Assembly (NCBI RefSeq): GCF_030020805.1
Contig: NZ_CP125098.1
Location: 1,902,001-1,966,000 of the forward strand
Length of the DNA: 64,000 bases
Reading direction: 5' to 3'
Origin: Paenibacillus sp. RC67
Lineage (GTDB): Bacteria > Bacillota > Bacilli > Paenibacillales > NBRC-103111
Shown here piece after piece: positions 10,058-50,930 of the stretch (position 1 is the stretch's first letter; every line of letters begins with the position of its first letter). The translations under genes were made by a program, and so were the position numbers. The notes beneath the pieces were generated by a model. The model was given only the letters and a program-made list of their open reading frames with translations, had not been told where the DNA came from and made no database searches.

Positions 10058-10305
10058 TCAAATCCGAATTTCAATGATCGGGACAGTAGTTAATTGATTT
10101 CAGTCGCAGCGAGCCGGGAGGGTGAAAGCCGGTACGAAGTCATTAGTGAAGCGGACCCGCGAGATGGCCTTTTGAACCAAAGTAGGAAGGCCCGGCTGAA
10201 GACCGTTATCTTATAAGGTGGTTAAACCTGTGGTTTAACAACAAGAGTGGTACCGCGAGCACAAAGTCCTCGTCTCTTAACAGAGATGTGGACTTTTTTT
10301 GTTGT
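10058..10305 (+). promoter_or_regulatory. T-box leader of argS, specifier CGG (Arg)
   Basis: T-box core TGGTACCGCG lies at 10248-10257, then a terminator stem (AAAGTCC with GGACTTTTTTT). In Stem I the loop-E strand AGTA is at 10085-10088 and the opposing GAA at 10148-10150. The upper helix TTAAT/ATTAG and the lower GGG/CCC pair enclose a loop whose bases after GAA-G are CGG (10152-10154) followed by A. CGG is an arginine codon and matches the downstream gene. The specifier is my inference from manual folding; the T-box itself is clear. Confidence 0.85.
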
Positions 10306-10350: not shown

Positions 10351-12210
10351 ATGCTAAGTCAATTTATGATAGGTAATCTGGAAAGATCGTTAAAAGGGCT
10401 GTTGGAGGAGCTGGGAGCAGCTTGGAACGAAGGAATTAAAATTACGCTGGAACAGCCTGCCCAATTGGAGCATGGCGATTATTCGACTAACATCGCGATG
10501 CAGCTGGCTAAGGTGCTGCGTAAACCGCCGATGCAAATCGCAGATTTGTTGATCAAGAGGCTGGAGCAGGACGGCTCTATGGAGCGTCTAGTTTATAAAA
10601 TAGAAGCTGCCTCGCCCGGGTTCATCAATCTGTTTTTGGATTGGAAGCAGTGGGCTGTTAAGTCATTTGCAATGCCGGCGTTAAAAGGGGAAAAGGTTGT
10701 TATCGAGCATACCTCGATTAATCCTAACAAATCCGCCCATATCGGGCATTTAAGAAATTCTTGTATCGGCGATGCACTGGTAAAGCTGCTTAGGAGAGTG
10801 GGATATGAGGTAGAGGTTCATAATTATATTGACGATCTCGGCAATCAGTTGGCAGATACCGTCGTCGGACTTCAGCATACGCAGCTGCACAAAAGTCATG
10901 CCCGGTTCGGTGATTTTTGCTGGGATGTTTATTCTCAAATCAATAAGGAATATGCGAAAAATCCTCAACTGCTCGAGCAGCGTACTCATGTGCTGCATGC
11001 TTTGGAGGAAGGGGACTCGAATATTGCCTGGATAGGACTCTTGGTCGCGGAGCGAATAGCACGCGAGCATGTAGAAGAAATGAAACAGTTCGGCATCGAA
11101 TACGACCTGCTCGTTTGGGAAAGCAGTATCGTCAGGGAAGGCTTCTGGGCTTCCGCTTTTGAGCTGTTGAAGCAAACACCGCTTTTCTACAAGGAAACGG
11201 AAGGGAAGCTGGCAGGATGTTGGGTATTGAAACAGCCTATGGGTACAGAGGATCAGGAGTCAGAGCATCAGATCGATAAAGTGTTGGTTCGCTCTAACGG
11301 CATCTTAACTTATACCGCTAAGGATATTGCATATCACCTTTGGAAATTTGGACTGCTCGACAAAAGCTTCCTATACAAGCCGTTCGGAGATAAGTTGTGG
11401 ACGACCCATACTACCGGAAAGGTAGAGCCGTTCGGCCAGGCGGGGATGGTGATCAATGTCATCGACCATAGGCAGCAGTACCCACAAGCGATGGTAAAGC
11501 AGGCGCTGGAGGCCTTGGGATTCAACGAGCAGGCCGATAAGCTGCGGCATGTAAGTTATGGTGTCGTATCGCTTAGTCCGAATGCTGCAGCGGAGCTGCA
11601 AATCGATACATCGGACGGAAAAGCATCTTATGCTATGTCAGGACGTCAGGGCATAGGGATTAAAATAAGCGATCTGCTGAGTCTAATGGAGGAAGTGATC
11701 GATAACAAAAGATCCGATAAAGAGGGGCTGTCCAGTAAAGATATAGCAGCGGCTGCCATCAGGTATTATTTGCTCCGTTTCAACCTTCAGACGGAAGTGG
11801 TGTTCGATTTGCAGCAGGCCACCGAAATATCTGGAAATACGGGTGTGTATTTATTGTATTCCTACGCTCGTGCTGTCCGCGTGTTGGATAAAGCCGTACA
11901 GGAATTGGGTATAGCTCCGACCATACCTGAACAATTTCCTGCTATGGAAAATCAAGAGTACGCTTTGATAAGACATCTGTCGCATTGGGAAGAAACCTTG
12001 TACACGGCAAGCAAAGAGCTGACTCCGAATATCATTTGTAATTATGCGCATGAAATGGCTACGTTGTTCAATCATTTCTATGCGGTGTGCGCCATTCTGA
12101 AGTCGGGAGAGGAGAGTAGACAATTCCGAATTTGGCTTGTATCCCGTTATAAAGAGGTGCTCGGCGATGCGCTGAGGGTGCTGGGATTGCCGACTCCGAG
12201 CCGAATGTAA
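10351..12210 (+). CDS. argS: Arginyl-tRNA synthetase (long, T-box controlled form)
   Basis: Class I synthetase charging tRNA-Arg. At 619 aa it is longer than the usual Bacillus ArgRS of about 556. The N-terminal Add-1-like domain includes LEHGDYSTNIAMQLAK. The HIGH-type motif NPNKSAHIGHLRNSCIGD lies near residue 130. The catalytic core has YTAKDIAYHLWKFG, and MSGRQGIGIK near residue 430 stands at the KMSKS-equivalent site. The C-terminal DALR anticodon domain has VYLLYSYARAVRVLDKA. GGAGGG precedes ATG 10351. Control by a T-box and the divergent length suggest an inducible second copy or an acquired version; whether another argS exists cannot be seen here. It is followed by the 12234-12446 repeat element. 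Confidence 0.92.
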   Translation: MLSQFMIGNLERSLKGLLEELGAAWNEGIKITLEQPAQLEHGDYSTNIAMQLAKVLRKPPMQIADLLIKRLEQDGSMERLVYKIEAASPGFINLFLDWKQWAVKSFAMPALKGEKVVIEHTSINPNKSAHIGHLRNSCIGDALVKLLRRVGYEVEVHNYIDDLGNQLADTVVGLQHTQLHKSHARFGDFCWDVYSQINKEYAKNPQLLEQRTHVLHALEEGDSNIAWIGLLVAERIAREHVEEMKQFGIEYDLLVWESSIVREGFWASAFELLKQTPLFYKETEGKLAGCWVLKQPMGTEDQESEHQIDKVLVRSNGILTYTAKDIAYHLWKFGLLDKSFLYKPFGDKLWTTHTTGKVEPFGQAGMVINVIDHRQQYPQAMVKQALEALGFNEQADKLRHVSYGVVSLSPNAAAELQIDTSDGKASYAMSGRQGIGIKISDLLSLMEEVIDNKRSDKEGLSSKDIAAAAIRYYLLRFNLQTEVVFDLQQATEISGNTGVYLLYSYARAVRVLDKAVQELGIAPTIPEQFPAMENQEYALIRHLSHWEETLYTASKELTPNIICNYAHEMATLFNHFYAVCAILKSGEESRQFRIWLVSRYKEVLGDALRVLGLPTPSRM

Positions 12211-12213
12211 GGA

Positions 12214-12231
12214 GGAGCCCTTGAGGGCTCC
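12214..12231 (+). terminator. Hairpin directly after argS (first copy of a duplicated terminator stem)
   Basis: GGAGCCC-TTGA-GGGCTCC starts 3 nt after the argS stop and lacks a T-run. A near-copy of the hairpin (12451-12468), with a T-rich tail, lies on the other side of the repeat element. Confidence 0.6.
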
Positions 12232-12233
12232 TT

Positions 12234-12446
12234 AGATTGTCGAGAAACCTGTAAAACTTGAAATATTGCTAGTATGCTCCGGTGGGGTATGCCTCTCCGG
12301 CCGCTTGTTGTTCTTGGGAAATTTTCAATTTTATTCGCTTTACAGCGGGGATTTCCCAAGAACAAAGGCGGACGCTTTCGCTCCTCCGAGGCATACCCCA
12401 CCTACCCATATAGCAAATTTCTCGAAGAAACAGGTTTAACGACAGA
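12234..12446. repeat. Structured dispersed repeat, copy 1
   Basis: A 213 bp imperfect inverted repeat after argS. Outer arms pair in order: AACCTG/CAGGTT, TTGAAATATTGCTAG with ATAGCAAATTT, and GTGGGGTATGCCTC/GAGGCATACCCCAC. The inner arm TTGTTCTTGGGAAAT (12308-12322) pairs perfectly with 12351-12365. The outer parts are nearly identical to 50695-50897, while the inner arm and loop are unrelated to that copy. No plausible protein is encoded. It could be a MITE-like mobile element or a structured RNA; no mobilising enzyme is in the window. Confidence 0.8.
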
Positions 12447-12450
12447 CTCA

Positions 12451-12485
12451 GGAGCCCAAGAAGGCTCCCATTACATTTTTTATAT
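12451..12485 (+). terminator. Terminator after repeat copy 1
   Basis: GGAGCC-CAAGAA-GGCTCC (12451-12468) followed by CATTACATTTTTT. It is nearly the same stem as the hairpin at 12214-12231. From here to 12608 I see nothing else. Confidence 0.65.
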
Positions 12486-13916: not shown

Positions 13917-13944
13917 GATAATTATTTTCTGAATATTGTAATAA

Positions 13945-14195
13945 CGATGAAGAGGAACAGTAGCTGATAACTTGAATGTCAGAGAGCCCATGACGGTGGA
14001 AATTGGGTATTCGAGCCTAGCGAAAGAAGCCTTGGAGTATCGGACCGAAAAGTAGGAGTAAGTCCGGCGGGTCTTCCCGTTATAGGAGAGGCGCTTAATC
14101 TAAGCGCTGTGAGAGGGTTGCAATCAACCAATGCAGGTGGTACCGCGGAAGCTCTAGCCTTTCGTCCTTAGAGGATGAGGGGCTTTTTGTCATAT
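13945..14195 (+). promoter_or_regulatory. T-box leader of gltX, specifier GAA (Glu)
   Basis: T-box core TGGTACCGCGG lies at 14138-14148, then a hairpin ending GGGGCTTTTTG. In Stem I the loop-E strand AGTA (13959-13962) faces GAA (14022-14024). The helix CTTGAAT/ATTCGAG and the GCT/AGC pairs lie above, AGG/CCT below. The bases after GAA-A are GAA (14026-14028) then G, a glutamate codon that matches the gene. Specifier assigned by manual folding. Confidence 0.85.
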
Positions 14196-50660: not shown

Positions 50661-50668
50661 AAGCAAAA

Positions 50669-50692
50669 GGTATCTTCTGTAATAGAGGATGC
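50669..50692 (+). terminator. Hairpin directly after the dehydrogenase gene (first copy of a duplicated terminator stem)
   Basis: GGTATCTTC and GAGGATGC pair around TGTAATA, without a T-run. The sequence is an imperfect copy of the functional terminator at 50900-50930 on the far side of the repeat. Confidence 0.55.
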
Positions 50693-50694
50693 TC

Positions 50695-50897
50695 AGATTG
50701 TGGAGGAACCTGTAAAGCTTGAAATATTGCTAGTATACTCCAGTGGGGTATGCCTCTCCAGCCGCTGTTGAAATCCATGAATCTTATTAGAATTTAGTGG
50801 TATATTCACAGATTTCAAAGGCGGACGTAAACTCCTCCGAAGCATACCCCACCTACCTATATAGCAAATTTCTCGCAAAACCAGGTTTCTCGTCAGA
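50695..50897. repeat. Structured dispersed repeat, copy 2
   Basis: A 203-bp element nearly identical in its outer arms to 12234-12446: AACCTGTAAAGCTTGAAATA, GTGGGGTATGCCTCTCCAGC, then GCATACCCCACCTACC and ATAGCAAATTTCTCG. The inner arm TTGAAATCCATGAAT (50768-50782) pairs with 50804-50818 (13 of 15 pairs) but has no sequence relation to the inner arm of copy 1. Confidence 0.8.
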
Positions 50898-50899
50898 AA

Positions 50900-50930
50900 G
50901 GCATCCTCCGTCTAAAGAGGATGCCTTTTG
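50900..50930 (+). terminator. Terminator after repeat copy 2
   Basis: GGCATCCTC and GAGGATGCC pair perfectly around CGTCTAAA, followed by TTTTG. Confidence 0.8.

Follow-up and report, generated by a model that had tools for sequence, protein, structure and literature searches.

The staphylococcal elements IS1272 and TnSha1, of the IS1182 family, take as their target a stem-loop, often a terminator, that has no sequence consensus, and IS1272 deletes or replaces this stem-loop, leaving no target duplication (PMC4923244; PMC5678879). A different route, set out as hypothetical pathway b, would begin with attack at the 5′ feet of a cruciform and end with the entire stem-loop duplicated (PMC5678879). 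MITEs of the IS1182 family have been listed in Methanosarcina acetivorans, where the ISMac2-derived elements measure 160-169 bp, with repeats of 25-26 and 4 or 0 bp (PMC3852290). Among other short bacterial repeats, Correia/NEMIS, ERIC, BOX, RUP and SPRITE elements are described as being transcribed as hairpins, and Correia and ERIC elements as changing mRNA processing or stability (PMC10969869).

Here we describe two elements in a stretch of the genome of Paenibacillus sp. RC67 (the host), 64,000 nucleotides long, which is called the window. They resemble IS1272 and TnSha1 in that their likely partner insertion sequences carry a transposase of the IS1182 family and in that the target is a terminator stem-loop. 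In contrast to those elements, the target stem-loop is duplicated whole and not removed, and stem-loop replacement of the IS1272 type is ruled out by this duplication. They share with the ISMac2 MITEs a small size, multiple copies, lack of autonomy and assignment to IS1182; the account of the latter reports no conserved RNA core, and the repeat lengths listed there imply no hairpin-length target duplication (PMC3852290). The Correia/NEMIS, ERIC, BOX, RUP and SPRITE elements are likewise short bacterial repeats, but they occur in unrelated hosts, and the descriptions given in PMC10969869 include neither duplication of a terminator hairpin nor a covarying core found across an order. In our view the family in the window is probably a MITE that relies for its movement on an IS1182-family transposase acting in trans, duplicates the terminator hairpin at its target and carries a conserved RNA core.

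Two members of a MITE family

An earlier note, made from the sequence alone, had placed a pair of related segments at 12234-12446 and 50695-50897, which is correct to within a few bases, and the long shared stretches that it quoted are present; overall the two copies are 78% identical (DNA search, E 2.6e-39). It had also taken each segment to fold into one long interrupted hairpin and to be non-coding. Folding is indeed far beyond that of shuffled sequence (z -10.6 for copy 1 and -8.8 for copy 2; 0/200 shuffles equal), and the only frames that overlap the copies are short and unsupported, none of them a convincing ORF. Two features went unnoticed: duplicated terminator hairpins bracket both copies, and conservation is found not just in the outer arms but in an inner core of about 107 nt. 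The parts are as follows.

12213-12231, plus strand: copy 1, left copy of the terminator hairpin, AGGAGCCCTTGAGGGCTCC; one hairpin at the orthologous site of Paenibacillus sp. UNC451MF (G007)
12232-12449, plus strand: copy 1, MITE body; left end about 12234-12249 (AGATTGTCGAGAAACC), right end about 12430-12449
12287-12397, minus strand: copy 1, structured core on the probable RNA strand; covariance model R1, 104 bits, E 5.6e-26
12450-12468, plus strand: copy 1, right copy of the terminator hairpin, AGGAGCCCAAGAAGGCTCC, with a T-rich tail to about 12482; from a terminator scan
50666-50692, plus strand: copy 2, left copy of the terminator hairpin, AAAGGTATCTTCTGTAATAGAGGATGC; one hairpin at the orthologous site of Paenibacillus sp. 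32352 (G011)
50693-50896, plus strand: copy 2, MITE body
50748-50848, minus strand: copy 2, structured core on the probable RNA strand; covariance model R1, 76 bits, E 2.5e-18
50897-50924, plus strand: copy 2, right copy of the terminator hairpin, AAAGGCATCCTCCGTCTAAAGAGGATGC, then CTTTT

Both copies lie between convergent genes; a transcript of the downstream gene, which is on the minus strand, would carry the minus-strand core in its 3′ end. Upstream of copy 1 is a 619-aa ORF (10351-12210) that, judged by eye from its translation, appears to encode arginyl-tRNA synthetase (argS). A T-box leader lies just upstream of this ORF (10065-10280, plus strand, 131.5 bits), and a second occurs at 13938-14172 (plus strand, 109.2 bits).

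The family body is about 205-218 bp long, with imperfect ends CAGATTGTCGAGAAACC and GGTTTCTCGACAGACTCA in oriented copies. In the host genome (7.96 Mb, one contig) at least 42 distinct places were found on scoring the best 40 of 100 DNA-search candidates, and searches with the end motifs and the covariance model added about 20 more; the resulting figure of about 60 or more, which is a lower bound, agrees with the prediction of many copies made from the first two. Being short, multi-copy and non-coding, with terminal inverted repeats, target-site duplications and empty sites, the family is classified with high confidence as a MITE, a non-autonomous DNA transposon. These repeats, duplications and empty sites, together with a link to the IS1182 family, bear out the 'MITE-like mobile element' of the earlier note. 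Phage and plasmid collections gave no match to the element, and a search of published papers yielded neither a catalogued MITE that matches it nor a paper on such repeats in Paenibacillus. The host belongs to one genus group with G007, G011 and Paenibacillus sp. H1-7 (G008); the genome sets comprised one genome per species. Collapsed derivatives are also present in the host (L066, L067, L068 and L069), of which L066 consists of the two ends alone (27 bp), and others have lost the hairpin and retain about 100 bp.

Whole terminator hairpins are duplicated at the insertion site

Copies of the MITE sit between two copies of a hairpin that is specific to the locus and matched within it, typically with A's on its left and T's on its right, which identifies it as an intrinsic terminator. 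In 34 of 49 full-length copies the flanking direct repeat lay above the 99th percentile for mismatched flank pairs, against an expectation of about 0.5 copies; the other 15 have no clear duplication, which may reflect their age. Among the 30 copies with good repeats, the repeat began exactly at the start of the hairpin in 15 and mostly ended within a few bases of the hairpin's end, with lengths of 12-30 bp. Since the edges of the repeat follow those of the hairpin over this range of lengths, it is the whole hairpin that forms the target-site duplication.

Related genomes supplied the alleles before and after insertion. The site of copy 1, 3′ of argS, has a single hairpin in G007 (GTAAAGGGGAGCCAGCGGGCTCCCCATT); that of copy 2 is empty in G011, with just one hairpin, and occupied by an element in G007. 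At a third locus (L003) the terminator, AAAAAAGAGTGCTTAGCAGCACTCTTTTTT, is plain in G007 and duplicated around an element in the host. In G011 the same terminator is duplicated around a copy of that genome's own young sub-family, seen at two contig ends (L316, L341), which suggests that the insertions of the host and of G011 into this terminator (L003, L314, L316, L341), being of different sub-families, were independent events. Several loci of G011 carry near-identical copies with clean duplications of hairpins that differ from one another, so the element has been active recently in that genome. Past mobility of the MITE and its targeting of terminators are thereby shown.

A likely IS1182-family mobiliser

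Matches to the transposase model PF13751 in the genus include copies in G007 that end in CAGATTGTAGAGAAACCCATG and abut terminators; the other end of these insertion sequences, AGGCTGTCGAGAAAG, was found on other contigs, where it abuts a matching hairpin. One complete IS1182-type insertion sequence with such ends was found, in G004 (about 1.55 kb; L123/L141), running from CAGACTGTCGAGAAAG to TTTCTCGACACTCTG and flanked by a perfect 24-bp hairpin duplication. Its transposase frame is broken by a frameshift, and the N-terminal and C-terminal parts match NF033551 (IS1182) at 1.6e-58 and 1.2e-80 respectively. The ends of the MITE are closely similar to those of the G004 and G007 insertion sequences, and the target is common to both. 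In G011 about 75 bp of MITE end, and then a hairpin, come immediately after the remnant of an IS1182 transposase. Searches for an intact IS1182 transposase found nothing but remnants in the host and no intact one in G011, despite the recent activity of the element there, and among the host places listed no pair of ends 1-3 kb apart encloses a transposase. Because neither genome supplied an intact enzyme, we infer the identity of the mobiliser from sequence: it is likely an IS1182-family insertion sequence, which would have moved the MITE in trans.

A further IS1182 group, with ends GAGGCCACTGAAAAAGTCC (L147, L151, L156, L159 and L161 of G005; L150 of G004), seemingly lies inside terminators, after an A-tract and half a hairpin. 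It may represent an IS1272-like mode alongside the hairpin-duplicating mode within one genus.

We propose that an IS1182-family transposase would pick an intrinsic terminator by its hairpin, that the ends of the element would be joined at both feet of the extruded hairpin, and that repair would then copy the entire hairpin to both sides. Joining at the feet of a cruciform is put forward because duplication of the whole hairpin fits the attack at the 5′ feet noted previously (PMC5678879). As the hairpin is duplicated and one copy, the outer one, keeps its T-tract, termination should survive, and one or more neighbouring transcripts would come to include the MITE in their 3′ untranslated region. 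Terminators could in this way serve the MITE as safe landing sites.

The conserved core and its probable strand

Over its roughly 107 nt the core forms a long interrupted helix, with a C-U/C-A internal loop, and a bulged mini-hairpin whose loop is of the C(GNNA)G type. In an alignment of 26 diverse cores 92% of cells are paired and 25 of the 32 pairs show double changes; the covariation score was 0.598, compared with at most 0.205 for slid partners, and was reached by 0/500 shuffles. An anchored count over 199 cores gave 88-98% pairing at stem positions 2-4 and 8-11, against 39-65% with the strands shuffled. The letters of the lower stem, the unpaired letters and the internal loop are near-invariant; so, too, are the outer positions in the loop of the mini-hairpin (on the minus strand GNNA, closed by C-G; 211/213 and 212/213), the two middle bases being free. 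Two candidate features were considered: a pseudoknot of CCGCTG with an apical CAGCGG, which we do not claim, as the case is inconsistent and the apical GCGG is often paired locally, and a GNRA loop on either RNA strand, which is rejected, the third loop base being mostly U on the minus strand. The core resembles, to our knowledge, no self-cleaving ribozyme or riboswitch.

The core is not confined to the host or to this MITE. Its motif CAAAGGCGGWCGCTNNCGCTCCT, allowing at most one mismatch, is present in 27 of the 104 genomes taken from the taxonomic family, with as many as 60 occurrences in a genome (reversed control, 0), and also in numerous named Paenibacillus contigs. Several species have the core inside elements with other arms and ends, such as CTATATAGATTGAACTT...AAGTTCAATCTATATAG (L169, L170, L180, L204, L206 and others); elements of this type have no visible terminator hairpins, and neither a transposase nor a target duplication was found for them. 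The covariance model of the core, for which E-values are rough, matched 301 of 346 Paenibacillales genomes at E <= 1e-4, with at least 11 sites in most of them. Other Bacilli almost lack it: in a sample of 200 genomes of the class 19 matched, 17 of which belong to the Paenibacillales; the only matches outside the order, in G503 and G458, are weak (1.1e-7 in a 400-contig assembly, and 4.1e-5) and could be contamination or a distant relative. The earlier note had allowed for a structured RNA family and had foreseen covarying stems and many copies; a covarying, RNA-like core is repeated across the order, and further copies and covariation are both abundant. A catalogued RNA family, which it had named as counting against a new one, did not emerge. 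A structured, covarying RNA would fit among the Rfam families, but no family in Rfam 15 matched the core at its gathering score, and the best permissive hit was to a microRNA model at 25.7 bits, where the cut-off is 96.

A purely transposon history is the alternative to any function of the core. The family could be an ordinary MITE with a functionless inner hairpin, whose core is conserved only through descent from a few successful ancestors and whose stems are held in register by gene conversion templated on the hairpin. Homogenisation of long inverted repeats needs no selection on an RNA, the element is mobile and multi-copy, and its collapsed derivatives show that the hairpin is remodelled. 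We nevertheless regard this as unlikely, as the core is kept across the order while arms and ends vary, its unpaired letters and internal loop hardly change, and gene conversion predicts neither of two asymmetries between the strands. G-U pairs in the stems number 135 on the window minus strand and 29 on the plus strand, one position contributing half, and at independent sites (tandem gene pairs, with orthologous sites merged) the minus-strand core lies in gene sense in 78 of 100 (p 1.6e-8), gene orientation being judged from simple ORF calls. In the host clade alone the bias is weak (22/32). The minus strand also folds slightly better (142/198). The excess of G-U pairs and the bias towards gene sense point to the window minus strand as the structured strand, probably acting as RNA.

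The main alternative for the core itself is that it works as single-stranded DNA, with a protein of the host or of transposition binding the folded minus strand as DNA is replicated or transferred. A loop of the C(GNNA)G type is also compatible with this, for a GNNA loop closed by C-G, with its outer letters fixed and its middle bases free, belongs to a known class of stable DNA tetraloops and differs from the RNA GNRA class. We consider this role improbable, however, since the orientation of the core follows the genes (78 against 22) and is even with respect to replication (23/42 host places, with the origin assumed near coordinate 0). That the core is a free-standing structured RNA gene or regulatory element, duplicated with terminators and without a transposon, would account for hairpins beside almost every copy but is scarcely credible, being refuted by empty sites with one hairpin each and contradicted by hairpins that vary between loci and match within them, even around the near-identical copies of G011.

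We therefore return to a transposon that carries an RNA core. The core is probably made as RNA together with neighbouring genes, by co-transcription from the minus strand, and we hold with moderate confidence that this RNA has a function. By analogy with Correia and ERIC elements an effect on the stability or processing of mRNA 3′ ends is most likely, and binding of a protein would be another. Whether all of this amounts to an undescribed RNA family, present in about nine-tenths of Paenibacillales genomes in many copies each as the cargo of different miniature transposons, with a carrier in the host clade that spares terminators and so seeds a functional RNA structure into dozens of transcript 3′ ends, is to our minds evenly balanced.

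The family provides many natural cases, including empty and filled alleles, of structure-guided transposition that duplicates a whole stem-loop, which had been set out as a hypothesis (PMC5678879), and it shows how terminators can take up a transposon and remain intact. Should the core prove to be a functional RNA, it would represent a large RNA family, absent from the catalogue, that spread through transposition; what it does to mRNA ends could be assessed directly between orthologous genes with and without the element.
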